Below are positions 4,086 to 46,965 of a stretch of DNA of 64,000 nt, piece by piece. The notes under the pieces were generated by a model, which saw only the letters and a list, made by a program, of their open reading frames with translations, was not told the DNA's origin and made no database searches. The stretch covers positions 1 through 64,000 of the forward strand of contig JAPPIG010000082.1 of NCBI GenBank assembly GCA_028820635.1. The letters are read 5' to 3'. Position 1 is the stretch's first letter. Each line of letters starts with the position of its first letter. The stretch is from Candidatus Poribacteria bacterium (GTDB lineage: Bacteria > Poribacteria > WGA-4E > WGA-3G). Both the position numbers and the translations under genes were made by a program.

Positions 4086-4447
4086 GGTAGAGTTTACGAC
4101 ACCCATAAATCAACGGTATGAATGCCATCAGGCATTCCCCGGGTGTCAACTTAAGAAGACATCTACGTTTTGACGAGTGCTTCTCAACCCTTATAGTGAT
4201 TGAAACTGTCCCATATTTAGTCCCGTAGGGACGCTATGTTTATAGAAATATGTTACCCACCGCCTCTTGAGTTCCGTAGGAACGACATATCTGACTGGTG
4301 GACTGAGGCGACAACATACCGCCCCTACGGGGCTCAAGAGAGGGATTATCCGTTTTCTATAAACATACCGCCCCTACGGGGCTCAAGAGGGTTTTCCCTG
4401 TTTGAAAATTGCTTAAGTTGACACCTATGGGTAGAGTTTACGACACC
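4086..4447. mobile_element. MITE-like element B1 with 18-bp direct repeats
   Basis: The element spans 4104-4429. Its right end reads CTTAAGTTGACACCTATG (4412-4429); its left end is the complement, CATA at 4104-4107 continued by GGTGTCAACTTAAG at 4142-4155, and is split by a 34-bp insertion (element D1, 4108-4141). The 18-bp sequence GGTAGAGTTTACGACACC flanks it exactly on both sides (4086-4103 and 4430-4447). Removing element and one copy restores a GTAG-headed hairpin. The interior holds four short hairpins with GTA loops and stems GTCCC/GGGAC, GTTCC/GGAAC and GCCCC/GGGGC, in two orientations. Most of the interior is the reverse complement of element B4 at 34360-34652. No protein is encoded. 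Confidence 0.85.
4108..4141. mobile_element. Nested hairpin insertion D1
   Basis: A 34-bp insertion beginning AATCAAC, followed by an imperfect hairpin with arms AATGCC and GGCATT. It interrupts the left terminal repeat of element B1 between CATA and GGTGTCAAC. Other full copies are at 5757-5792, 10207-10240, 31013-31049 and 37142-37176, with a shortened copy at 28436-28459. Confidence 0.75.
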
Positions 4448-5548: not shown

Positions 5549-5864
5549 GTAGGTCGGGTAGAGCGAAGCGACACCCGACACGTTTCGTTCATGTCGGGTG
5601 TCGCTTCGCTCTACCCATAGCTGTCAACTTAAGGAATTTCGATTTTGAGTATATCTCTTCAGTCCCGTCGGGACGATATGTTTATCTTTCTATGCCGTTC
5701 CTACGGAACTCAAGAGGCGGAGGACAACATTTTTTCTATAAACATTCCGTCCCTACCAAATCAACGCTATGAATGCCTTTATGGCATTCAGCGGGACTAA
5801 AGATACTGCATAATACAAATCAAAATTCTTAAATTGACATTTATGGGTGTCGCTTCGCTCTACC
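5549..5864. mobile_element. REP pair with MITE-like element B2 inserted in its arm
   Basis: Positions 5549-5615 are an inverted pair of GTAG-headed hairpins (stem GTCGGGT/ACCCGAC). Element B2 (5616-5845) lies in the second hairpin, with the perfect 19-bp direct repeat GGTGTCGCTTCGCTCTACC at 5597-5615 and 5846-5864. Its ends are CATAGCTGTCAACTTAAG and CTTAAATTGACATTTATG. Inside are GTCCC/GGGAC-type hairpins; one (around 5749-5798) is split exactly at its tip by hairpin element D2 (5757-5792). No coding potential is seen. Confidence 0.85.
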
Positions 5865-10072: not shown

Positions 10073-10290
10073 GTAGGTTGGGTTGAGGCACGAAATCCAA
10101 CATTTACCAGCTATTATAGTGGATTCTACAATTAACTTTACTTATGAAGAACTGTAGGAGGGAACTCCGATTCCCGACTGAAGAAGGGTCGCGATTCGGA
10201 GATCGGAATCAACACCAAATGCGCGTTTGGCATTTGGCGCCTACAAAAGATATATTTGAAACATATCTAACTGCTAAATTGACATTTATA
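10073..10290. repeat. Composite: REP, element C3, hairpin D3, B-element remnant
   Basis: 10073-10101 is a GTAG hairpin with a GTTGGGTT/AACCCAAC-type stem, partly decayed. 10115-10141 is the end of a C-type element (TATAGTGGATTCTACAATT). 10154-10244 is an inverted GTAG hairpin pair whose right unit is interrupted by hairpin element D3 (10207-10240, AATCAAC head, arms CCAAATGC and GGCATTTGG). Around 10274-10290 is a right end of the B type (AAATTGACATTTATA) followed by half of a GTCGGGT-family hairpin; its left end is missing. Confidence 0.7.
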
Positions 10291-10416
10291 GGTGTCGCTG
10301 CGCGCTACCCAACCTAAGGTGATTTGGACAGAAGTAACCACTAAGACTAAGGTTACGTATATCTTTACACATTATAGAAGACAGGATTGTAAATTTTTCC
10401 GCCAAAATTCTTTTAA

Positions 10417-12074: not shown

Positions 12075-12365
12075 GGATTTCGTAACCTCTATCCATAGGC
12101 ATCAATTTAGGGATAACCCTTTGTGGCAGTGTCTTCAGTCCCGTAGGGACGATATGTTTATAGAATTATGTTCAACTAACCTCTTTAGTCCCGTAGGGAC
12201 GGAATGTTTATGGACTCAAGTGGGTGGTGAAGACGTTTCTCTATAAACATATCGTCCCTATGTGACTGAATATGGGACAGTCTCAATGATAATGGGTATT
12301 GAACCACGTTCAAAAAATGCAATCGTTTTCTTAAATTGACAGTTATGGGTTTCGTAAACTCTACC
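12075..12365. mobile_element. MITE-like element B3 (aged)
   Basis: The element spans 12094-12347 with ends CATAGGCATCAATTTAGG and CTTAAATTGACAGTTATG. It is flanked by related 18-19 bp sequences, GGATTTCGTAACCTCTATC (12075-12093) and GGTTTCGTAAACTCTACC (12348-12365), which differ at a few positions, so this insertion is older than B2 or B4. The interior contains GTCCC-GTA-GGGAC hairpins followed by ATGTTTATAG. Confidence 0.75.
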
Positions 12366-28408: not shown

Positions 28409-28560
28409 GTAGGTTGGGTTGAGGCACGAAACCCACTGAATTCCTTTTGGCATTCAGCGGGTGTCAACTTAAGGATATATCCGATTGTTGGAGGGCTTTG
28501 TAAGCCCGATTTAGATGTCAAAATCTCTCAATATCGGGGTTTTAAACCCCTCCAACAATA
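28409..28560. repeat. Composite repeat: GTAG hairpin, D remnant, truncated B element
   Basis: 28409-28435 is a GTAG hairpin of the GTTGGGTT/AACCCA type. A shortened D element (28436-28459, arms GAATTCC/GGCATTC) interrupts it. From 28460 runs the left end GGTGTCAACTTAAGG of a B-type element with the interior hairpins GGGCTT/AAGCCC (after TTGTTGGAG) and GGGGTTT/AAACCCC (before CTCCAACAA). The right terminal repeat is missing; the sequence runs directly into the start of the LRR gene. Confidence 0.7.
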
Positions 28561-34341: not shown

Positions 34342-34670
34342 GGTTTCGCAAGCTCTACCTATAAGTGTCAACTTAAGCAATTTTCAAACAGGGAAAACCC
34401 TCTTCAGCCCCGTAGGGGCGGTATGTTTATAGAAAACGGATAATCCCTCTCTTGAGCCCCGTAGGGGCGGTATGTTGTCGCCTCAGTCCACCAGTTAGAT
34501 ATGTCGTTCCTACGGAACTCAAGAGGCGGTGGGTAACATTTTTTCTATAAACATATCGTCCCTACGGGACTAAATATGGGACAGTTTCAATCACCATAAG
34601 GGTTGAAAAGCATTCATCAAAACGTAGACATCTTCTTAAGTTGACGCCTATGGGTTTCGCAAGCTCTACC
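34342..34670. mobile_element. MITE-like element B4 with perfect 18-bp direct repeats
   Basis: The element spans 34360-34652 with ends TATAAGTGTCAACTTAAG and CTTAAGTTGACGCCTATG. It is flanked by perfect copies of GGTTTCGCAAGCTCTACC (34342-34359 and 34653-34670), inside a GTCGGGT-family hairpin. Its interior is the reverse complement of B1 (4142-4429), with only scattered differences, including the hairpins with GTA loops. It carries no D insertion, so it shows the intact form of this subtype. Confidence 0.88.
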
Positions 34671-34779: not shown

Positions 34780-36912
34780 TTAGTTTTCGTTTAGGTCAAC
34801 GATTTTCAAATCATCAAAGGGTTTGCCTTCAGTATCAGTGATCCGAAGATAAAATCCCCATCCCTGTGTTTCTTCACATACTTTGACAAGGATACTGTTT
34901 TTACCCGGTTGGAGTGTTACAGGAATAATGTAATTGTCAATTTCAGCGGTAAAAGTTTTTGTATGTGAAAACACTTCAATACCGTTTAACCAGATTTTCC
35001 CTTGGTCGTCAGAATCGAATCGGAATTCGACTTCACGTTCATCTGGAGAATTTACAGTTGCAAATGCATAAGCAACACACCAATCTATATCCCCACCAAG
35101 ATGTATGTGACCATATAGATTATCATCTGTACTTTTTTGCCAACTCACCTTTCCATTTATCCCATCGTATTTTGCGGTGAGGTCAATCTTAGGTAGGTTT
35201 TCTGGAATGTACGCTGTATTAAATCCAATCCCTCCGACATTATCAAATGGACCAAGAATCATCCAGGCATCTTCGGTAATAAAGCCGGTTTTTCGGATAA
35301 GTTCATTTGCTTCCTCGTCTTGGCCACTTTCTCTATAAAATTGTGCCAAAGCAAGTGTAGTACTTAGTTGTGAACGGGGATTGTCAGACATAGAGTCAAT
35401 CAGTTGATTTAACATTTCAACGTAACCTTCTTTGTCTTTAACATTTTTTCCAGTTTTGACAACCTGCGATAACAGATCACGCTCAACATACGGTAAAAAC
35501 ATCATGTCAAAGATGCTCTCAATGAGTTGATATGCGTTTTCATACTGTTCATTCACGAGAAATGCCTGCACGAGAGTAATTATGTAATCTGTACTTGATG
35601 GCCCTTCTGTTGCTTTAAACGCGAATTCCAAAGCCATTTCAGGAAACATGTTTTTCTCAAGAAGTTCTACAGCAAGATCGTAATATACCGATGCATCATT
35701 TTTTCTATCAACTTCTTTTTTCCTGATCTTTAGCCATTGGGAATAGGCGATTTTAGCTTCCTCTTCTTCACCAGCGTTTTTATAGGCATCCCCTAACAGT
35801 TGATGTAGAATAGCACTTTCTTCCATTTTTGGTCTCAGTTTTTCAAGTAGAATGATAAACTCCTCTTTTGTGCCATTCACAACGGAAAACTTATGGAGGA
35901 CTTGAATCGCATCATCATGTTCGGATTGCGTGAGATCAGCCTCTAAAGCACGAAGATAGATCTTTTCGGCATCGGATAGACGTCCTGTTCTGATGTATAT
36001 TTCTGCCAGAGAACGGTATATTTCATAAGAATTTGTATCACGAGTGAGAGCCTTTTCATAAACGGTAGCTGCTTCCTGCAGTTGTCCTGGGCCGGCAAAG
36101 GCTGAGAAAGGACGTATGTATCTGATTAGTTTTACGTCACCGATTAAGAAAGCATCGTTCTGATTTGATGAGATATCAGAGACGATGCCATCTGTTTGTT
36201 CATCAAATTTCCAATAACCTACTAAACCTTTTTCATCTCCTACCAACTGCTTTTTCATACAAGTTCGTATCTGATTTTCAGTCAAAGCAATGTTCCAGAC
36301 ACTAACCTCATCAATCTGACCGACAAAGGAGGAGTGGGTTTCTCTGTCATCTTCATGAGAATTCCCTATCCGTAATGGAAGTAAGCTTTCATAAAAACGC
36401 TGCTGTCCTCTAAAACTTGTCCTCCCAACTTCAAAACCATCTATGAAGACTTTGATAAAATTTCTTTGTGTATCAACGACACCTGCAATATGATGCCATT
36501 TGTTAAGTTTAATTGCCTCAGATGGAGAAAAGATATACTGTTCTTCCAGTCCCCTTGGTGATGACGCGAATTGAATAGCACCGTCGTCCCGTAAAAATAT
36601 GGCATAACTTCGATTACTTATATCAGAGGTGCTTCTATCTCCTTTGTAGATGATTGCAGCGTATCTGTTGGGAAAATCTGTCGCTTTTATCCATACAGAC
36701 ACAGTAACCTGTTCGCTAAGTGTATTCAACATATCGCTGTCAACAGTTTCAGCATAACTAAAATTGCCATCTAAATCCAAGGCAGTATCTTCAATAGATT
36801 CATCAAATTCGGTCTTGGAATCTTGTGCTGATAATTTGATGGAATAACTGAAGTTAAAGACGAATAGTAGTAGAATACATGCAATTATTAAGAAATTCCG
36901 TTGCGTGTACAT
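34780..36912 (-). CDS. Exported LamG-TPR-GPFD protein (short paralogue B)
   Basis: A 710-aa protein with GGAGG 8 nt before the ATG at 36912. It has the same order as paralogue A: signal peptide (1-29, LLFVFNFSYSIKLSAQ), LamG domain at about 45-265 (VSVWIKATDFPNRY...SFVGQIDEVSVWNIALT...GLVGYWKFDEQ), TPRs at about 275-550, and a C-terminal GPFD domain (WMILGPFDNVGGIGFNTAYIPE...WLNGIEVF...FYLRITDTEGKPFDDL). Its LamG is closer in detail to that of giant 2 (SNRSYAIFLRDDGAIQFASSPRG) than to that of giant 1, which points to a shared recent origin with its upstream neighbour. Confidence 0.88.
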   Translation of the reverse strand: MYTQRNFLIIACILLLFVFNFSYSIKLSAQDSKTEFDESIEDTALDLDGNFSYAETVDSDMLNTLSEQVTVSVWIKATDFPNRYAAIIYKGDRSTSDISNRSYAIFLRDDGAIQFASSPRGLEEQYIFSPSEAIKLNKWHHIAGVVDTQRNFIKVFIDGFEVGRTSFRGQQRFYESLLPLRIGNSHEDDRETHSSFVGQIDEVSVWNIALTENQIRTCMKKQLVGDEKGLVGYWKFDEQTDGIVSDISSNQNDAFLIGDVKLIRYIRPFSAFAGPGQLQEAATVYEKALTRDTNSYEIYRSLAEIYIRTGRLSDAEKIYLRALEADLTQSEHDDAIQVLHKFSVVNGTKEEFIILLEKLRPKMEESAILHQLLGDAYKNAGEEEEAKIAYSQWLKIRKKEVDRKNDASVYYDLAVELLEKNMFPEMALEFAFKATEGPSSTDYIITLVQAFLVNEQYENAYQLIESIFDMMFLPYVERDLLSQVVKTGKNVKDKEGYVEMLNQLIDSMSDNPRSQLSTTLALAQFYRESGQDEEANELIRKTGFITEDAWMILGPFDNVGGIGFNTAYIPENLPKIDLTAKYDGINGKVSWQKSTDDNLYGHIHLGGDIDWCVAYAFATVNSPDEREVEFRFDSDDQGKIWLNGIEVFSHTKTFTAEIDNYIIPVTLQPGKNSILVKVCEETQGWGFYLRITDTEGKPFDDLKIVDLNEN

Positions 36913-37009: not shown

Positions 37010-37103
37010 GCTCAATGAATTGTGCTACAACCGTTGGAAATCTGCAAATAAGCAGAAGTGTCTGTCGTAGTTGGTTTTGTGTTAGGTCGATGATTTTCAA
37101 ATC
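37010..37103 (-). pseudogene. Decayed duplicate of a paralogue 3' end
   Basis: On the minus strand 37103-37062 can be read as DLKIIDLTQNQ, matching the end of paralogue B (DLKIVDLNEN), but without the stop codon. The following DNA to 37010 also aligns with the region downstream of paralogue B, including the palindrome around CAATGAATTG (37010-37027 against 34722-34740). So 37010-37103 is homologous to the 3' end and trailer at 34722-34815, now cut off from giant 2 by mobile element B5. Confidence 0.65.
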
Positions 37104-37299
37104 CATAACTGTAAACTTAAGGATATATTCTATTGTTGGAGTAAATCAACGGTATGAATGCCTTTTGGCATTCCCCGGGTTTTCAACCCCGATTTTATAG
37201 GTTGAGACTCACAATATCGGGCTTACAAAGCCCTCCAACAAGAGATAATCCAGCAACTTTTTCTCAAGTTTACAGTTATGGGTCAGTGATTTTTAAATC
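37085..37299. mobile_element. MITE-like element B5 inserted in the 3' end of giant 2
   Basis: The element spans 37104-37280 with ends CATAACTGTAAACTTAAG and CTCAAGTTTACAGTTATG. It is flanked by GGTCGATGATTTTCAAATC (37085-37103) and GGTCAGTGATTTTTAAATC (37281-37299), 19 bp with three differences. The interior has hairpins after TTGTTGGAG with GGG-rich stems, as in the truncated copy at 28460, and a D element (37142-37176). The right end supplies the stop codon of the giant gene at 37276. Confidence 0.8.
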
Positions 37300-40200
37300 A
37301 TTGAAGGATTTACCTTCAGTATCAGTAATCCGCAGATAAAATCCCCAGGGAAGTGATTCATTACACACTTTAACGAGGATAGTATTTCGTCCAGCAGTAA
37401 GCGTCACTGGAATAGTTCGGCGGTCAATTACAGCGCCACGAGTTCTTCTGTGGGCATACACTTTATTACCGTTCAACCACACTTTCCCTTGGTCGTCACT
37501 ATCAAATCGGATTTGTGCTTTTCGTTCTTCAGGAGAGGTGAAAGTTATCCATGCATACGCGGCGTGCATTTTTTCTTCGGTACCAAAATCGAAGAACCCG
37601 TTATAGGTCTCATCAGTTGCTTGTTTCCAACCGACTTGTCCAGTAACTCCATCGTATTTTACTTCAGTATCAATCTGAGTTGTTTCTTCCTGAATGTATG
37701 CGGTATTGTAGCCGACTCCCTTCGTATTGTCAAATGGACCGAGGGTCAACCATGCAGTTTCAGGGAAGAAGCCAGTTTTCTGAATATATGTTTTTGCCAT
37801 TTCTGTCATTCCAAGTTGATGGCAGAATTCGGCTAATGATAGATTAGCATTTAACGGGTTGTCTGGTTGGTCAGGTATGGCATTAACCAAATTACCGATC
37901 ATCTCAATGTAAAGTGTTTTATCTTTTACATTTTTACCAATTTGAGAAATACGCGTTAGCAAATGTTCAATTCTATCTCCGCTAACTTTTCCAGATTGGT
38001 TCATAAGTTGAAGACTGGACTGAAAATTCTCTAATGCTTTATCGTACTGTTCATTAACAAGATAAGCATGCCCTAAGGTTGAATAGTAGGTTGAATCTGG
38101 TCGGGTTCCTGCTGCTTGTTTGGCAAGTTCCAACGCAATATCTGGCATGATATTCTGATTTAGAAGACGCTCGGCAAGTTGGAAATATTCTTGTGCGTAT
38201 TTTCCCTGATTAGGCTCATTTTTAAGAATTTCTAACCATTTTCTGTAGGCAGACGCTGCTTTATCCGTATCACCTGATTCAACATAAGTATCGCCTAACA
38301 TTTTATGTAGGAATGGGCTTTTTCCCGATTTTGATCCAAGTTCTTCAAGAATAGCAAGTCGCTTATCGGCATGTTCTTTACCTTTGTAAAGTTCCAAGAT
38401 GGCTTTGACAGCGGAATCATGTTCTGTTGGTTTGAGAGATGCTTGCAACGCTTGACGGTATACAGCTTCTGCTTTGGGAAGATCATTTTGTTTCGTATGA
38501 ATTTTTGCTACTAAGTTATAGAGTTCATACGAGTTAGGTTCAAACGAGATAGCTTTTTCGTAAGCCGCTGCTGCTTTTTCCAATTGTTCCGCGCTGGCAT
38601 CGGCAAAAACAGGAAAATTATACTCGATTAGTTTAGCATTGCCGATTATTTTTCCATCGTTCTTATTTGGTGATGCATCTGGAATAGATACTTCTGACTT
38701 TCTGTCAAAATCCCAGTGCCCTACTAAACCGGGTTCGTCCCCCGTCAATTTCTTTCTCATATTAGAACGAATTTGCTCTGGTGTCAGTGCGATATTCCAA
38801 ACACTTACGTTGTCAATTTGTCCAACAAAGGTTGCGTGGGTGGTCACTTCTTCTTCGTGTGAACCACCAATTCGGAAGGGAAGTATACTTTCATAAATAT
38901 TTGGTACACCACTATAATCTTGTTGCCCAACTTCAATACCATCAATGTAAAGTATTATGTAATTTCTTTGGGTATCAATGACGCCTGCTATATGATACCA
39001 TGTATTGAGCATAATTGATCCGCGTGGGGAAAAAACTTTGCGTTCGCCGAGTCCCTTAGGCGATGAAGCGAATTGAATAACACCATCATCCCGTAGCCAC
39101 AATGTGAAACTCCGATTACTAATGTCTGAATTTCGTCTGTCACCTTTAAAAATTATAGGCGTATATCTGTTCCGAAATTCAGTCGGTTTAATCCATGCAG
39201 ACACAGTAAGATGTTGATTTATGGTGTTTAGTGTGTTGCTTTCAACGACTTCAACAAAACTATAATTTCCGTCTAACTCCACCGCTGTATTCTTCTGAAC
39301 ACCGACCTCTGTCTCGCGTGGCTTTTGATAGAGATCTCCGATTTTTTTGTGCCATTGCGCTTCATCAGGTTGAAGTTCGCTAATCTTTTGGTATTGCACA
39401 ATTGCTTCTTCAACCTTATCGCTTGACTCATAAGTTTCTGCAAGCGCGAGACGGGCATCTACATCATTAGGATTGTCTTCAACTTTTTTTATCTGATTAG
39501 GAATCCTTTTTGCATGAAGGTTTCCATCTCTATATGCTTGTGCGATCGCTTTTTCGGCAGCTTGTTTTTTTCTATCATCACGAGCGATTTTTTTCAACTG
39601 CTGGTATGCATCAATGGCTTCTTCATATTGTTTTGTAGCAAGCGCACTTTTTCCGATGAGGTCATATAATATCTCCTCTTCCCATCTGTGCCCACCGTGT
39701 CTGTGCGTGTTAACAGCGATAGCGTCTTTAAAGAGTTTGATCGCAGGTGTATACATTTTAGCATCATAACAGATAGAACCGAGAGCACAGAGATACCACA
39801 TTTCGTTAGGACGGTTGCTGGATTCAAGAGCAGTATTGCCTTGCTTTAACAGTTTTTCAGCGAGTTCCGATTTTCCAGTTTTATTAAGTGCTGCGGCAGC
39901 GTAGTAAAAACCACGAACATTACTTGGATCCGCTTTACAGAGTGCTTGGTATGCCTCAGCAGTTTTCTCATGGTTACCAGCTTTTCGATGAATCTCGGCT
40001 ACAACCTCAAGGAGTATCGGGTTTGCAGGTTCTTTTTCGAGTTTAGCATCAAAAATTGTTTCCAACTGCTCCAATTTTCCTTTGTTTTTGTAGGCATCAA
40101 TCAAGATTTTGCGTGCTTCATCTCCACCGAAGGTGACAACGAAACCAGACTGGTTATGGGTGATAGAGGTAGTGAGTGAATTTGGCTGAGATATAGAATC

Positions 40201-43200
40201 GTGAAGTTCAATTGCCAAATCATCTTCACCACGTCGGACGTACTCCTGCATTAATTCGCTATAGACGTTATTTATTCCATAATCTCTGGATGACATGTTG
40301 ATAGCGTTCTTGTAGGCAGTAATCGCTTTATCGGATTCTCCTTTAGAACGATATTGCCGGGCAAGTTCCACTTGCATGGTAAAAGTAAGGGTGTCATTCT
40401 TTTCCGCTTCTTTTAACTTTTCTTCTAATTTTCCTTGCTTTCGATAAATAGTTATAATTTGGCGTTCAATATTACGCTGTTCATATTCATGAGGGGCAAC
40501 CTGAAGTGCTTTTGTATATGTCTTAGCGGCTTCATCTAACTTACCCTGATTCTGATAGTTGCGTGCAAGTTCCTTCAGCATATCAAAGGAAAGTGCCCCT
40601 TGATTTTCCACTTCTTTTAGGTATTCTTCAAGTTTACCTTGACGACGATAGATGTCTATCAATTGTCGTTGAATATTTTGATGTTGGTGTGTCTGTGCAG
40701 CATACTGAAGTGCTTCTTTGAATGCTTTCTCTGCATCATCCAGCTGATTACTCCGTAAATAGAGAACCGCCAATTTCTCATAAATATCGGCATTTCCTGG
40801 TGAAAGTTCAATTGCTTTTTTGTAGGATGCAATTGCTTCTTCACGTTGTCCCTTGCCGTAGTAAAGATGCGCGAGACGAGCGTGATGAAGACCGTTTTCA
40901 GGTTCGTCCTGAATATATTTCAGCGCGAGTGTTATTGCCTCCTCAGATTTTCCTGTGTTCTGATATGCCTCTATGATCCCATCTTGGTATTTGGTGTTTT
41001 CAGGATCGGCTTCAAGCAATGCCTTCCAGATTTCTAAAGCCTTTGCATGCTGGTTTTGGCGTGAATAGAGATTAGCGAGTTGAGAGCGGGATTCAAGGTC
41101 TTCTGGCATGGCTTTCGTGATTTGCTCATAAATTTTTATCGCTTCAGGGATCTGATTACGACGCTGGAGTTGCTGTGCCATTGATCGTTGCACACCAATA
41201 TTAATTCTTCCTGTTTTTACGTTTGAGTGTTGGTTTCCTGTAACACCATCTCGTCTCTGTTGGATTGTTACAAGTTGTTCTTGTGCACGTTCTTTATAAT
41301 ACTGTTGTGCTGAAAGATCGTTGATAACTTCGGTTAACAGGATTTCTGCTTCGTCCCACAATTCGTGTTTAATATACGTTTGAGCAACGTTCTCTTTTTC
41401 ATAATATTGTGGCATACCACGCCGCATAAGTCGGAGTGTTCCCATTTTCTTGATAGCATTCTGTGCCTTTTCTTTTTCACCTTTTTTAGAATATGCCGTT
41501 CCAAGTTTCATATAAACATCTGAAAGTTGCCAAGAATTCTGCGGATCAACTTTCTGGGTTGCAGCTTCAAGCATACTGATTTCGCGATTAAGGTCTAATT
41601 TTTCTCTGTATGTATTAGCTAAGGAACTTAGCCATTGAAGCCTTGACTGTGAGGGGATGTTTTCAAGGAGTCTATTGACAATTAGGTCAGAGCCTTCTAA
41701 GTCTTTTGTCACAATCTTCGTAACAGCGGCAAGATAAAGTGTTGACGGATCAACTTTTTCATCAGTGATCGCTTCGTCGTACTCTGTTACTAAAGTTTTA
41801 ATCTCATCTTGCGTTTCATCAAATTTTGCAAACTTTAAAACGATACCGACTTTTGATTCTGTATTTTCTGTTTTTAGTTTCTCGCGTAAGAGTTGGATCG
41901 CCTTCTCGCGTTGACCAGCGGCTGTATAAGCATCTGCTAATTGGCTATAGACATTCCTTCTACCAGATTCCATCATTTTTTCATAGATTTCAGCAGCAGC
42001 CTTTGGATATTTGTTTCTAACACATTCTTGAGCAGCTCTCATTGCGAATTCGTTTCCCATAGAATATTGGTTGCCTTCCCCAATTGCTTCTTTTGCGATT
42101 GCGACCAGTTTATCTATTTCTCTGGCATCAGTAAATGTGCGAACAATTTCCCAGTAGTTGTAGAATATAGTTTGAAAATTCTTTTTATCATTCATGAGAA
42201 TGCTGTATTGTTTTACAGCATTCTTTGATTGTCTATTTCGCTGTAACATTTGCGCATATCGCATGCGGGTAGAATTGTCTTTGGGGCGTAATACAAGTGC
42301 TGCATCGTAAGCTGCTGAAGCCTTATGTATCTGATTTTTGCCTTCGTAGTATGACGCTAATCTTAGCTGCGCTTGAAATGAATTTGGATTTTTTTCAGCT
42401 GCTTCAATTACTTTTGCTGCACGGTTTCCGCCAGACACAGACGTGGAACGACTGGCGAGACGCGATGCTTGTTGAAGATAATATGATTGTAACGTACGTC
42501 CAAAGCGGTCTTGTTGGTTTGCGAATTGTAGGGCGCGTGCTGCTATGCGCGCTGCATCTTGTCCTCTACCAAGCTGGGCCAAGTGTTGGCTTAATTGCAC
42601 GAGGAAGTTCGCGTCACGTTCACGCATCGCTAAGGTCGCTGTTTTCTTTCCAACAGCTATAGCGTATTGCGTCAGACCGTTCTCCTGAAGTTTTTTAGAA
42701 AACTGGAAAAGTTCGCGGACACTACTCGGTGAATTCAGCACTTTTGTGATCAAATCGCGGACAATGAGCGTATCACCTACGTGGACAGCGACTTGTAACG
42801 TTAGGTCGAAATATTGACGACGGTTCCTTGGGTCTGCATCCGCAAGGTTTTGAAGGAGTTCTAATGCTGTTTTATGTTCACCTGCCTGAATTGAGACCAG
42901 AACAGTATTGAGTTTAAGTGTGAGGTCATCAGCAAATTCCTGCTGCAGACGAGAGAGTATTTCTAAGGCAGTTTCACGTTTATTTTCCCACCAATAACAG
43001 TAACACATCGCTAAAGCAGGATAGATTCGGTCTCTACCTTCAGCAGCATCTAACTGTGTCTGTAAAACAGTATACAGTGCTTGATGTTGATCATTTATCC
43101 AAAACTGATTGAAAATTTGCTGTAGAGACTGCAACCGGTCTTGGGTGTAATAGGTTGTTGGTGCAGGAAAATTTGCTTGAATCTGGGAGTATCCGCCATA

Positions 43201-46200
43201 GGAGTAAGAAGTAGATGTGCTGAGCGCCATAGTCCGACGTGGATTCGTAACGCTTGGTTTCGTGCGTTCTAAATATTGCCAATAGATTGTTGCTGCTTTA
43301 TCATCTTTTCCATTACGGAGATATGTCGTAGCAAGTGTTTGATAGATGCGGACATGTTGTTGGGATAATTGGGGAGTTGTAGCCGAAAATTGCTCAATAA
43401 ATTTCTCTGCCGTGTCTGTTCTCCCCAACTGTACAAAAGTACCAACTAACATGGTAAAGACATTCGGGTTGATCACTTTTATTTTTTGAAGATCGTCTAA
43501 AAGTTTTTCTGCATCTTCTTTCTGATCTTGGTAGCTAAACCTTCTGGCAAAGTCTGCCATATACCATTGCCGATCTTCTGGTGTCAACCACGTCATCAGT
43601 TCAAGTTGATTCATTAACGTATCATAATTAAGTTTTTTCTGTGTTTGGAGAAGATTCAACTGCATACCCTGATACGCAGGATTATTTGGAGATGCAGCGA
43701 CTAACCTTTCGGTAATTTGTTCGGACTTCTCACGGTTTCCAGTCAAAACGTAAAGTTGTGCTAATTGTTCAAGTGTCTGTACATCTTTCGGATTCTCGGT
43801 AACATTTTTCTCAAATTGTGCAACAAACTCGTCTATTTTATCCTCTTCTTCCATGATAATTTTCAACTGAACAAGTGCACCAACTTGTGCCTCTTCGAAA
43901 CTTGTAGGTACCCACGCTTGTCTGCTTGTATAAACATAAGGTTGTCTTTGGATACGATTTAGAACATTTGACGCAAGTGCCAGTTTGTTTTTATTGAGTC
44001 CGGGAGGACCGTAATAGGGAGAGGGGACATTTGTTGAGGTATTATTAGATGTAACAGTCGCAGTAGAATCGGTAGCAGGTTCGGGCATTGCTAAAATTCG
44101 TTGAAAGTGAGGAATTGCTCTTTCCGCTTCGTTTATTTCAATAAGTTTTGCCCCGATTTGGTATAGTGCAAGATGTGCATCTTTGCCTGAAATCTTTTCA
44201 GCTGCGCTATCCAATGCAAAAAGTGCTTCCTCTAACAAACCGTATCGGATCAACAATCTTGCGAGTTTGACTTCAGCTTCAAGGGTTTGGTTTTTAGCGT
44301 GGAGTACTTTAGACCATGCTTGAATCGCTTCCTGCTCACGCCCAGCATCAAATAACAGTTCGCCCAGTTTTTGCTGATGTACTGGATCAGGATTTGCCTT
44401 GACAAGTCGCTGTTGGTAAGTGAGTGCTTCCTGCATATCGCCAAGGTCCGAACTTATATCTACGAGTTCAGATAGAAGTGCAGCATTTTCGCGTTGTCGG
44501 TCTAAGGCACGTGCAAGTTGAAAACGTGCGCTTGAAAGATCACCTTCAAGCCGATAGACTTGTGCAAGACCTAAAACTGCTCCTACACCAGATGTATTGG
44601 ATTTAGCCATCTGCTTTAGTTTTTCTTCAAGTTCTCCTCGTCTACCTAAGTCGTAATATGCTTCAGATAGCGGTTTAATGAAACTGAGTTTGTCACTTAT
44701 ATTATCGCTTAACTCCCAACATCTCCAGTACTGTGCGATTGCCTGCCGAGAGTTCCCTGAACGATTGTAAAGCGCAGCAAGTTCGACTCGGATGTCAATT
44801 GCTTCAGGTCGTAGTCTGATTGCCTGCTTATAACTATCAATTGCCTCTTCGTATTTTGTAGACTGTTTGGCAATTTCAGCAAGCAGCTGATGCCCTTCAG
44901 GATTGCGTGGACTGTGCGCAATTACCTGCTTTGCAGCGTCAATGGCAGCTTCAAAATCCATTCCTTTCAGATATGCTTTTGCAATATTCGCATGATATTC
45001 CCGGGCATTTGTGCTGTCAATTTCGGTTAAATGCTTGTAAATTACAATCGCTTCGTCACGTCTACCTTGTTTTGTATAGAGATTTGCTGTTTCACGATTA
45101 ACATCTATGTCATTCGGTTGAAGCACTTTGGCTTTCAAGAGGATTTCGAGGGCATAAGTCGTATTGCTTAACTTTAGATACATCTTTGCGAGTCGCTTCA
45201 ACTGTGTGAATTTGTCGGTATCAGAGAGTCCGGGTTTTTCAAGTTGTGTTTCAGCATCTTCAACCATTTCAACAAGTGTGCCTTGTTTGCGGTAGAGTTC
45301 AATTCGCTGATCATCCATCTGTTCCGCAAAAAATTCATTGGGGGCAAGTTTAATTGCTTCCGTGTATTCTAATAGTGCTTCATCGTATTGTTTGTTGTTC
45401 ATGAGTCGCTTTGCTAAAGCCTCACGAAAACGGTACGCATCAGGCATCAGTTCCACTGCTTTTTTACTCGCGTCAATTGCTTCGGTGGGAAACTTTTTTG
45501 CCTCTAACAATCGCGCTAACCGATCATAATTCTCAGGCGTGTTTTTGCCATCAGCAACCATCTGGTTCCACGTCTCAATCGCCTTTTCACGGTTAGCTTG
45601 ACGGAAATAGAACTCTCCGAAATACTCAATGTAATCGAGATTTTGCGGCGCGAGGGAGATTGCTTTTTGATACGCTGCGACGGCTTCTTCCATCCATTCG
45701 TGTCCGGTGTAAATTTCCGCAAGCGTAAGGTGTGTGCTTGCATTCTGCGGATCACGGTCAATCATCTTTTGATAGACTGCCTTTGCTTTGTCTTCATCTT
45801 CAAGCTGCAGATATAATTTGCCGAGTTCACGGTAGATACCGAAATCGTCAGGTTGCTGTTCACTGAGTGCTTCGTATTCAGTTGCTGCCTCTTCAAACTT
45901 TTCTGCATTGCGAAGTGCAGTGATAAGACTTAAACGGAGACTGGTATCTGTTGGCGCAAGCTCTAACCCTTTTCTATAGGTGTCTGTGCCTTCATCAAAT
46001 TGTTGATCTTCAATGTAAGTTGCAGCAAGTAAACCGAGTAATTCAACATCGTTGGGATCAGTTTCAAGTTTTCCTTGATAATAGGTAATTAGGTCTTTCC
46101 AATTTGCGTCCGTTGAGTAAATTGCAATGATTCGATGTTGCAGGTCTCTTCTAAGCCAATTACCAGGGGCAGTTAGGTCCAACGCCTTATCGTAATGTTC

Positions 46201-46965
46201 ACGCGCTTTATCATACTCACCTGTATCTTCGTGTATTTTACCGATTTCGCGCAGGCTGAGACATCTACGATACGGGTCGTCTTTTTTAGTATCTATAATC
46301 GCTTGGTGTTGTTCAATTGCTTGTGAATAGAGTTCTTTTTCTCGGAAAAGGTCGGCAAGTTCAATGCGTGCAAACACATTCTCTGGATCAAGTTCGGAGA
46401 TTTTTTCCCATGCCTGTATTGCATCGTCTAATTTATCTCGACTGAAATATGCTTGTCCGAGTGCCTTGTAAATTGCGGTTAATTCTTCAGGCGACACTGC
46501 TTGGGATTGCTCTGATAAGGTGACGGATTTGGTTAATTCGCGAATTGCATCTTCATGTTGACGTAGCGTCACGTGTAGTTGCCCGAGTGCAAAATAGGCA
46601 TAATAATTGTCAGGATCGAGTTCCACTGCGCGTTGATATGCTGTAAGTGCTTCCTTATCCTTACCGAGTCTTTTATAGATATGTCCTAATATGAGTTGGA
46701 TGTTTGGATCATTAGGTTTGGCTTCTGCTTCCGCCTGATAATCTGTGACCATTGACTCTAAACCATCACCTTCAAGGTAAAACTGATAAAGCCGATCAAA
46801 TGTGCTACCTTCTTTTGGTTTTTGGTTAAGCATTAACTTGTAACGTTCAATAATTTGGGCATCGTTTATTCCGTCTTGTGCCAGAATGATTGGTGAAAGC
46901 AGTAGGGTTGAAAATAAAAGACTTAACACACATAAAGCAATTGCGTATTTTTCACGTCCAAACAT
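37276..46965 (-). CDS. Giant exported TPR protein with LamG and GPFD domains (giant 2)
   Basis: A 3229-aa protein with AAGGAG before the ATG at 46965. Signal peptide 1-29 (ALCVLSLLFSTLLLSPIILA, then Gln30-Asp). The conserved head DAQIIERYKLMLNQKPKEG precedes dozens of TPRs, with the Tyr/Pro-rich linker at about 1250 (YSYGGYSQIQANFPAP). The LamG domain is at about 2558-2780 and the single GPFD domain at about 3070-3225. The C-terminus is shorter than in the paralogues: it stops at DLKITDP, because the last residue and TAA come from the end of element B5. It lies 523 nt downstream of giant 3 on the same strand; the gap is full of repeats, so separate transcription is likely. Role as for giant 1, by inference. 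Confidence 0.9.
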   Translation of the reverse strand: MFGREKYAIALCVLSLLFSTLLLSPIILAQDGINDAQIIERYKLMLNQKPKEGSTFDRLYQFYLEGDGLESMVTDYQAEAEAKPNDPNIQLILGHIYKRLGKDKEALTAYQRAVELDPDNYYAYFALGQLHVTLRQHEDAIRELTKSVTLSEQSQAVSPEELTAIYKALGQAYFSRDKLDDAIQAWEKISELDPENVFARIELADLFREKELYSQAIEQHQAIIDTKKDDPYRRCLSLREIGKIHEDTGEYDKAREHYDKALDLTAPGNWLRRDLQHRIIAIYSTDANWKDLITYYQGKLETDPNDVELLGLLAATYIEDQQFDEGTDTYRKGLELAPTDTSLRLSLITALRNAEKFEEAATEYEALSEQQPDDFGIYRELGKLYLQLEDEDKAKAVYQKMIDRDPQNASTHLTLAEIYTGHEWMEEAVAAYQKAISLAPQNLDYIEYFGEFYFRQANREKAIETWNQMVADGKNTPENYDRLARLLEAKKFPTEAIDASKKAVELMPDAYRFREALAKRLMNNKQYDEALLEYTEAIKLAPNEFFAEQMDDQRIELYRKQGTLVEMVEDAETQLEKPGLSDTDKFTQLKRLAKMYLKLSNTTYALEILLKAKVLQPNDIDVNRETANLYTKQGRRDEAIVIYKHLTEIDSTNAREYHANIAKAYLKGMDFEAAIDAAKQVIAHSPRNPEGHQLLAEIAKQSTKYEEAIDSYKQAIRLRPEAIDIRVELAALYNRSGNSRQAIAQYWRCWELSDNISDKLSFIKPLSEAYYDLGRRGELEEKLKQMAKSNTSGVGAVLGLAQVYRLEGDLSSARFQLARALDRQRENAALLSELVDISSDLGDMQEALTYQQRLVKANPDPVHQQKLGELLFDAGREQEAIQAWSKVLHAKNQTLEAEVKLARLLIRYGLLEEALFALDSAAEKISGKDAHLALYQIGAKLIEINEAERAIPHFQRILAMPEPATDSTATVTSNNTSTNVPSPYYGPPGLNKNKLALASNVLNRIQRQPYVYTSRQAWVPTSFEEAQVGALVQLKIIMEEEDKIDEFVAQFEKNVTENPKDVQTLEQLAQLYVLTGNREKSEQITERLVAASPNNPAYQGMQLNLLQTQKKLNYDTLMNQLELMTWLTPEDRQWYMADFARRFSYQDQKEDAEKLLDDLQKIKVINPNVFTMLVGTFVQLGRTDTAEKFIEQFSATTPQLSQQHVRIYQTLATTYLRNGKDDKAATIYWQYLERTKPSVTNPRRTMALSTSTSYSYGGYSQIQANFPAPTTYYTQDRLQSLQQIFNQFWINDQHQALYTVLQTQLDAAEGRDRIYPALAMCYCYWWENKRETALEILSRLQQEFADDLTLKLNTVLVSIQAGEHKTALELLQNLADADPRNRRQYFDLTLQVAVHVGDTLIVRDLITKVLNSPSSVRELFQFSKKLQENGLTQYAIAVGKKTATLAMRERDANFLVQLSQHLAQLGRGQDAARIAARALQFANQQDRFGRTLQSYYLQQASRLASRSTSVSGGNRAAKVIEAAEKNPNSFQAQLRLASYYEGKNQIHKASAAYDAALVLRPKDNSTRMRYAQMLQRNRQSKNAVKQYSILMNDKKNFQTIFYNYWEIVRTFTDAREIDKLVAIAKEAIGEGNQYSMGNEFAMRAAQECVRNKYPKAAAEIYEKMMESGRRNVYSQLADAYTAAGQREKAIQLLREKLKTENTESKVGIVLKFAKFDETQDEIKTLVTEYDEAITDEKVDPSTLYLAAVTKIVTKDLEGSDLIVNRLLENIPSQSRLQWLSSLANTYREKLDLNREISMLEAATQKVDPQNSWQLSDVYMKLGTAYSKKGEKEKAQNAIKKMGTLRLMRRGMPQYYEKENVAQTYIKHELWDEAEILLTEVINDLSAQQYYKERAQEQLVTIQQRRDGVTGNQHSNVKTGRINIGVQRSMAQQLQRRNQIPEAIKIYEQITKAMPEDLESRSQLANLYSRQNQHAKALEIWKALLEADPENTKYQDGIIEAYQNTGKSEEAITLALKYIQDEPENGLHHARLAHLYYGKGQREEAIASYKKAIELSPGNADIYEKLAVLYLRSNQLDDAEKAFKEALQYAAQTHQHQNIQRQLIDIYRRQGKLEEYLKEVENQGALSFDMLKELARNYQNQGKLDEAAKTYTKALQVAPHEYEQRNIERQIITIYRKQGKLEEKLKEAEKNDTLTFTMQVELARQYRSKGESDKAITAYKNAINMSSRDYGINNVYSELMQEYVRRGEDDLAIELHDSISQPNSLTTSITHNQSGFVVTFGGDEARKILIDAYKNKGKLEQLETIFDAKLEKEPANPILLEVVAEIHRKAGNHEKTAEAYQALCKADPSNVRGFYYAAAALNKTGKSELAEKLLKQGNTALESSNRPNEMWYLCALGSICYDAKMYTPAIKLFKDAIAVNTHRHGGHRWEEEILYDLIGKSALATKQYEEAIDAYQQLKKIARDDRKKQAAEKAIAQAYRDGNLHAKRIPNQIKKVEDNPNDVDARLALAETYESSDKVEEAIVQYQKISELQPDEAQWHKKIGDLYQKPRETEVGVQKNTAVELDGNYSFVEVVESNTLNTINQHLTVSAWIKPTEFRNRYTPIIFKGDRRNSDISNRSFTLWLRDDGVIQFASSPKGLGERKVFSPRGSIMLNTWYHIAGVIDTQRNYIILYIDGIEVGQQDYSGVPNIYESILPFRIGGSHEEEVTTHATFVGQIDNVSVWNIALTPEQIRSNMRKKLTGDEPGLVGHWDFDRKSEVSIPDASPNKNDGKIIGNAKLIEYNFPVFADASAEQLEKAAAAYEKAISFEPNSYELYNLVAKIHTKQNDLPKAEAVYRQALQASLKPTEHDSAVKAILELYKGKEHADKRLAILEELGSKSGKSPFLHKMLGDTYVESGDTDKAASAYRKWLEILKNEPNQGKYAQEYFQLAERLLNQNIMPDIALELAKQAAGTRPDSTYYSTLGHAYLVNEQYDKALENFQSSLQLMNQSGKVSGDRIEHLLTRISQIGKNVKDKTLYIEMIGNLVNAIPDQPDNPLNANLSLAEFCHQLGMTEMAKTYIQKTGFFPETAWLTLGPFDNTKGVGYNTAYIQEETTQIDTEVKYDGVTGQVGWKQATDETYNGFFDFGTEEKMHAAYAWITFTSPEERKAQIRFDSDDQGKVWLNGNKVYAHRRTRGAVIDRRTIPVTLTAGRNTILVKVCNESLPWGFYLRITDTEGKSFNDLKITDP

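Follow-up and report, generated by a model that had tools for sequence, protein, structure and literature searches.

The locus examined here raises the question of which enzyme could have placed five short elements (B1–B5) exactly between two copies of an 18- or 19-bp sequence, REP hairpin tips among them, in a window (the whole stretch of DNA analyzed) of 64,000 nucleotides from a Candidatus Poribacteria bacterium. On reading of the window sequence, B1–B5 and their ends were confirmed at the positions given in Table 1, and what the first-pass annotation had described there proved correct in several respects: a MITE family with 18-bp ends, direct repeats of 18–19 bp that are perfect at B1, B2, and B4 and imperfect at B3 and B5, two truncated copies that are both real and adjoin a hairpin tip, and no enzyme, as a related transposase was not found in the window. 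Its view of hairpin tips as targets likewise stands, with tips as favored targets and with B5, located at the 3′ end of a large ORF without a GTAG hairpin, lying outside them. B1–B4 lie in the spaces separating ORFs of 100 aa or more, and B3 is probably an old copy. REP doublets are present in this DNA, for example at B2. Orthologous empty sites for B1, B2, and B4 were sought within the genus, and at the syntenic loci read (L302, L312, and L313) the intergenic DNA has diverged too far for such sites to be judged. An Rfam search of the window gave no match.

Table 1. Elements, flanking direct repeats, and truncated ends in the 64-kb window.
Feature	Position	Strand	Details
B1, MITE, 326 bp	4104–4429	.	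34-bp foreign hairpin (4108–4141) within left end
B1 left direct repeat, GGTAGAGTTTACGACACC	4086–4103	+	REP hairpin tip; 18/18, perfect
B1 right direct repeat	4430–4447	+	matches left copy 18/18
B2, MITE, 230 bp	5616–5845	.	
B2 left direct repeat, GGTGTCGCTTCGCTCTACC	5597–5615	+	19/19
B2 right direct repeat	5846–5864	+	matches left copy 19/19
Truncated element end	10274–10290	-	abuts hairpin tip 10291–10309
B3, MITE, 254 bp	12094–12347	.	
B3 left direct repeat	12076–12093	+	15/18 identity with right copy
B3 right direct repeat	12348–12365	+	15/18 identity with left copy
Truncated element end, hairpin insert before it	28460–28474	+	tip GGTTGAGGCACGAAACC at 28417–28433
B4, MITE, 293 bp	34360–34652	.	
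B4 left direct repeat, GGTTTCGCAAGCTCTACC	34342–34359	+	18/18
B4 right direct repeat	34653–34670	+	matches left copy 18/18
B5 paralogous empty site, GGTCAACGATTTTCAAATC, single copy	34794–34812	+	3′ end of neighboring paralogous ORF 34780–36912 (minus); by eye
B5, MITE, 177 bp	37104–37280	.	3′ end of 3229-aa ORF (37276–46965, minus)
B5 left direct repeat	37085–37103	+	16/19 identity with right copy
B5 right direct repeat	37281–37299	+	16/19 identity with left copy

The ends define a family that extends well beyond the window. The 18-mer end CATAGGTGTCAACTTAAG has eight matches in the window at up to three mismatches, against 0.07 expected, and 82 matches at up to two mismatches in the bacterium's own genome, where the reversed control gave none; at up to one mismatch, ends occur in 44 of 97 genomes (own genome included), the reversed control giving a single match (in G054). 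Over the first 18 positions, the consensus of 110 MITE ends and that of 18 IS ends agree at 17, and B1–B5 have what characterizes MITEs, being 177–326 bp long, without a transposase gene, flanked by direct repeats, and provided with ends common to an autonomous element. Some ends are interrupted by a 34-bp foreign hairpin (AATCAACGGTATGAATGCC..GGCATTCCCCG), which follows CATA inside the terminal repeat in elements differing in length; at the left end of B1 the order is CATA, the hairpin, and then GGTGTCAACTTAAG. Fourteen hairpin-inserted ends were found, two of which are both ends of a transposase remnant and one of which has no partner, while among the other 11 a direct repeat of 18–21 bp lies at the outer CATA in ten (seven perfect, three with one mismatch) and none is seen in one. 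This insert has the look of a small mobile hairpin in its own right, with a preference for the CATA spot. A variant, CATAGGTGGCAACTTAGG (five copies), was considered as a source of IS ends near contig ends and rejected, as its copies have no common gene inside and outside the end they have in common no more than a short stretch, which belongs to a different repeat with a GTAG..CTAC double hairpin. At six loci (L031, L032, L033, L034, L035, and L044), ATAGGTGGCAACTTAGG, which resembles the element end, follows a further double-hairpin repeat (GTAGCGCAAACTG...GATTGTGCTAC). Among viral contigs, 165 pattern matches yielded no confirmed relative.

Direct repeats recur at copies across the Poribacteria. 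Each plus-strand end was paired with the nearest facing minus-strand end at up to three mismatches per end, a rule that required no repeat and that includes false pairs, in stretches chosen for end matches or for a transposase (some 70 places among the matches listed); pairs were kept when their flanks reached at least 30 bases, so that the perfect 20-bp repeat of L167 is uncounted. At a score cut-off of 9, which was our own choice, a direct repeat abuts both ends in 64 of 177 pairs (63 of 17–21 bp and one of 9 bp, at L119 in a distant genus), whereas 200 shuffles of the flanks gave 2.6 on average and never more than 7. The first-pass annotation had asked whether most copies lack the repeat, and the answer is divided: when both ends have at most two mismatches (118 pairs), 59 pairs have it, far above shuffled flanks, and 59 do not, unmatched flanks being expected from recombination between copies. 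Adding 11 copies with the foreign hairpin in one end gives 74 sites of 17–21 bp (L119 excluded; for 63 of them lengths were drawn from 16–22 bp), at which the repeat measures 17 bp in five, 18 bp in 17, 19 bp in 29, 20 bp in 21, and 21 bp in two. Eleven of the 63 repeats abut the end of another element, and at one place (G000 C32:31427–32103; L003, L037) four identical 20-bp repeats alternate with three different elements, much like a repeat-spacer array. Elsewhere (L245, L286), elements were apparently inserted in the terminal repeats of other elements, with 19- and 20-bp repeats there. In distant Poribacteria, L119:3588–3815 and L114 have similar ends (CATGGG/CATTGG...) on GTAG hairpins, and the 9-bp tip repeat of L119 (GTCTGAGAC) may mean that one phylum holds both stagger lengths.

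Near-inverted flanks were seen in seven of the 59 repeat-less pairs (against an average of 1.2 and at most 5 under the null), a single array accounting for two or more of the seven, and exactly inverted flanks were seen by eye in two distant relatives (L195, L216). Reverse-complement flanks, near or exact, thus occur at L188/L137, L178, L197, L114, L195, and L216, in Poribacteria, Pseudomonadota, and Bacteroidota. Such flanks are not a product of simple insertion. A special mechanism, our first impression from these cases, was not retained; the preferred explanation would be recombination between copies or a correction acting between the two inverted halves (element plus arm).

The enzyme itself is found in relatives. 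A transposase match is present in 23 of 97 genomes, the bacterium's own included, where the search gave no intact copy and a single broken remnant, located on a different contig, with 78% identity to the query and one inner stop; as no intact transposase was found there, mobilization in trans within that genome is deduced from the likeness of the ends. The first-pass annotation had suggested looking for a full-length element with these ends around a transposase or integrase gene, and such elements, of about 1.43–1.47 kb and with the same or nearly the same ends on either side of the gene, occur in other Candidatus Poribacteria. Among 17 IS-sized pairs, nine have perfect direct repeats of 17–20 bp, four have near-inverted flanks (L188, L178, L197, L114), and four have neither (L136, L139, L180, L191). 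One three-contig genome (G034) holds five full-length copies with equal transposase scores, four of them with perfect direct repeats, at four places and on three different tips. Copies with an unbroken gene are 1427–1472 bp long and have one ORF, and the broken L115/L197 copy is 1528 bp; full copies of the clade described below have CAT ends, except that L157/L180 and one end of L170 have TAT, the first base in Herpetosiphon being uncertain. The IS copy of G017 (L115:2451–3978), both ends of which are perfect, shows by eye stops ahead of the long open frame and, judged by these stops, is probably inactive.

PF01609 and NF033592 (NCBIfam IS4_1) scored above cut-off in seven of seven proteins, one of which (L114) lies outside the clade, with NF033592 scores of 170–211 bits against a cut-off of 115. 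The catalytic residues, assigned by motif as D119, D191, and E324, have spacings of 72 and 133 that fit D(60–110)D(100–150)E in all 14 rows, and the R, E, and K of the YREK motif, Y(2)R(3)E(6)K, are likewise present in 14 of 14. The Tyr of this IS4 signature is present in none of the eight Poribacteria rows of the clade, the same position being Tyr in Methylobacter and Chlorohelix and Leu in Herpetosiphon. A sequence search for a solved structure of the transposase found none; an AlphaFold2 model (mean pLDDT 83.6) retrieved the Tn5 transposase as its best structural match (E 1.3e-8, TM about 0.5). On motif and modeled structure, the enzyme of these elements is an IS4-derived DDE transposase with a predicted fold like that of the Tn5 enzyme, and the earlier hint that so long a duplication argues against a DDE enzyme has to be given up, as the full-length elements encode one of IS4 type. 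The window elements very probably owe their movement to an IS4/Tn5-related transposase.

The long repeat follows a clade. Eleven rows with support of 100/98 group together (eight Poribacteria, Chlorohelix, Herpetosiphon, and Methylobacter), and direct repeats of 17–21 bp can be read in seven of them, five Poribacteria and two Chloroflexota (L164, L161, L167, L158, L168, L291, L292); three others (L157, L172, L176) have no readable repeat and take their tree label by kinship. A perfect 20-bp repeat flanks the plasmid copy of Chlorohelix, and a perfect 21-bp repeat (or 19 bp if the end starts one base further out) that of Herpetosiphon; the Methylobacter luteus copy has, by eye, 20-bp tips in exactly inverted orientation. 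Outside the clade, eight of nine rows with a readable repeat have 9–11 bp: 9 bp in L198, L207, and L208 (one mismatch), 11 bp in L204, L209, L294, and L295, and 10 bp in L298, which is ISH5; L217 has about 5 bp. No clear repeat was read in L199, L202, L206, L293, L222, or L114. The end finder used for non-Poribacteria ranks candidates partly by repeat, and the lengths given for them are those of the best candidates. L198, L207, and L208 are also inserted, by eye, at palindrome centers, and palindrome-center targeting may therefore be older than the long stagger. L114, which has like ends and belongs to another Poribacteria family, falls on a long branch, and its tree position is unsure; it is the sole copy found at E 1e-20 in a search of 82 genomes, and a 9-bp repeat for it, read from L116 and L117, is a guess.

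How the cuts are placed is best seen at type-1 REPs, defined by GTAGGTYG-type arms on both sides (T[CT]G|tip|C[GA]AC), which fit 21 of the 74 sites. There, repeat length follows tip length (Spearman 0.92) because the cuts fall at fixed positions on the arms, exactly in 15 of 21 and one base off in six, a precision measured within a pattern that allowed cuts up to three bases from the arms; five of nine 17-bp tips were cut as 18. Uninterrupted type-1 tips in the bacterium's own DNA (39 by pattern) also measure 17–21 bp, and thus no selection on tip length is seen. Twenty-four sites fall outside the REP filters (three belong to a single array, and some still look REP-like by eye); they have 18–20 bp repeats and weak inner palindromes, with pairing at positions 2–4 of 0.62, 0.50, and 0.42 vs. 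0.38, 0.37, and 0.28 for shuffled partners, and in one of them none of six positions pair. Target class also goes with end type: copies with two CAACTT ends occupy type-1 tips by 10:0 and copies with two CAATTT ends type-2 tips by 17:3 (p = 1e-5), in a comparison of 30 of 63 sites from which mixed ends (nine type 1, one type 2, nine other) and other targets (six and eight) were excluded, and in which classes are our own patterns and confounded by genome. With that caution, this suggests that sequence is read at the target, and hence that sequence matters.

It is possible that the enzyme attacks an extruded palindrome, either a cruciform or a single-strand hairpin, cutting each strand at the 5′ edge of the folded tip, such that the stagger equals the tip at any tip length. 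That repeat length tracks the tip from 17 to 21 bp with fixed arm cuts is what such an enzyme would produce and is not predicted by a rigid duplex stagger, and the palindrome-center sites of the three relatives with 9-bp repeats point in the same direction. However, the 24 non-REP sites are only weakly palindromic and yet have repeats of 18–20 bp, and the target sequence class is tied to end type; overall, we regard attack on an extruded palindrome as unlikely. The first-pass annotation had proposed recognition of extruded palindromes, a proposal that the cuts at fixed arm positions support and that the use of weak palindromes at those 24 sites does not. Rather unlikely, too, would be a DDE lineage that sets its cut by the folded shape of the target, with both strands attacked at the edges of the extruded tip, the duplication matching that tip and growing or shrinking with it, and the targeted palindromes being multiplied.

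Taken as a whole, the evidence read directly from the sequences (the ends, the repeats, the arm-fixed cuts, the presence of a transposase gene inside elements with these ends and repeats, and the clade) favors a model in which B1–B5 are MITEs that were probably moved in trans by an IS4-related DDE lineage that reads two inverted half-sites; mobilization in trans, the strand chemistry, gap repair, and the reading of half-sites on duplex DNA are what we infer. This model proposes that the non-autonomous B1–B5 were mobilized in trans by that lineage, of which autonomous copies of about 1.43–1.47 kb survive in other Candidatus Poribacteria. A pair of transposases would read two inverted half-sites, one marked by a G|GGT or G|GTG edge and the other by the mirror of that edge on the opposite strand, which would often be both arms of a REP hairpin. 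The 3′ ends of the element may then be joined to opposite strands at the edges of the half-sites, and gap repair would copy all DNA between these edges. With edges about two helical turns apart (17–21 bp), the whole hairpin tip would be duplicated and the length of the duplication would follow arm spacing, as if an IS4-like cut-and-paste enzyme held its strand-transfer sites about 19 bp apart with a play of about 2 bp. REPs, being near-perfect inverted half-sites, would thus be favored targets, and, as a complete tip is left on both sides, the target would be renewed and further insertions could build tip-element-tip-element-tip arrays. Hairpin extrusion is compatible with half-site reading and unneeded for the weak targets, on what is the simplest account.

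Other enzymes or processes fare far worse. An IS1202 family member could be considered, as duplications of more than 15 bp are described for a subgroup of that family (PMC10132070). The same report gives the elements described there 5′-TGT outer ends and a transposase modeled on TnsB (PMC10132070). However, the ends here are 5′-CAT, the enzyme scores as IS4_1, and its predicted fold matches the Tn5 transposase, which makes membership very improbable, IS1202 being compared by description. Alternatively, the repeats may not be target duplications at all, the REP tips belonging to a larger composite repeat mobilized as a whole, for example with a REP-associated tyrosine transposase. The REPs here are GTAG-headed, a type we take to be linked with RAYTs, and REP doublets occur. 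One source treats the GTAG-headed class alongside RAYTs (PMC3733652). However, the repeats vary in sequence between copies and match within a copy, well beyond the shuffled-flank null, repeats also flank the elements at the 24 sites outside the REP filters, and the paralogous site of B5 is single-copy, so that the composite-repeat reading, given hardly any credence, is already contradicted. Casposons make duplications of 14–15 bp, and a Cas1-type integrase (casposase) acting on arrays of palindromic repeats that resemble CRISPR arrays would recall the array in which four 20-bp repeats alternate with three elements, but is scarcely credible given that autonomous copies carry an IS4-type DDE transposase between the same ends.

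Short staggers are the textbook property of IS4/Tn5-type transposases. If moved as proposed, these elements would define a clade of IS4/Tn5 relatives whose stagger is close to two helical turns, variable, and set by the target, opening the testable question of how a DDE synapse fixes the distance between its two strand-transfer sites. Transposition could likewise, as a side effect, increase the number of REP palindromes and arrange them in arrays, and the exact recognition of such insertions in uncultured phyla becomes possible.

Comparison with known systems places the elements near, and apart from, several of these. As described in PMC2266710, the IS4 family (IS231, ISH8, IS4Sa, IS10, IS50) shares with them a DDE enzyme with PF01609, a single ORF, the D-72-D-133-E arrangement, and R..E..K; IS231 and ISH8 share 5′-CAT ends, and a length of about 1.45 kb falls within the IS4 range of about 1.15–1.8 kb. 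By contrast, groups of that family have repeats of 7–13 bp, about one turn of the helix (PMC2266710), rather than 17–21 bp, the Poribacteria members are without the YREK Tyr, and REP hairpin tips are the main targets here. ISRm22, of the IS4 family, also inserts on the axis of a REP palindrome, but duplicates 6 bp (PMC1525189), whereas the whole tip is duplicated here and the length tracks the tip. IS1549 and IS1634 are IS4-related and have long, variable repeats, which range from 8 to 514 bp by copy (PMC2266710), and not from 17 to 21 bp as set by the target arms. The IS1202 subgroup resembles the present elements in its DDE enzyme and in duplicating more than 15 bp, and differs in transposase and ends (PMC10132070). 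REPINs and RAYT-moved REPs (PMC3116915, PMC2817692) also involve palindromic REPs, which for the present elements serve as targets and not as building material. No IS4 elements with tip duplications of about 20 bp were found in open-licence literature, as represented by titles and the starts of abstracts, with ISfinder outside this scope. The elements are thus filed as IS4 by descent and motif, and as a new IS4-related lineage rather than an ordinary IS4 member because the Poribacteria members miss two published hallmarks of that family, a repeat of about one helical turn and the YREK Tyr.
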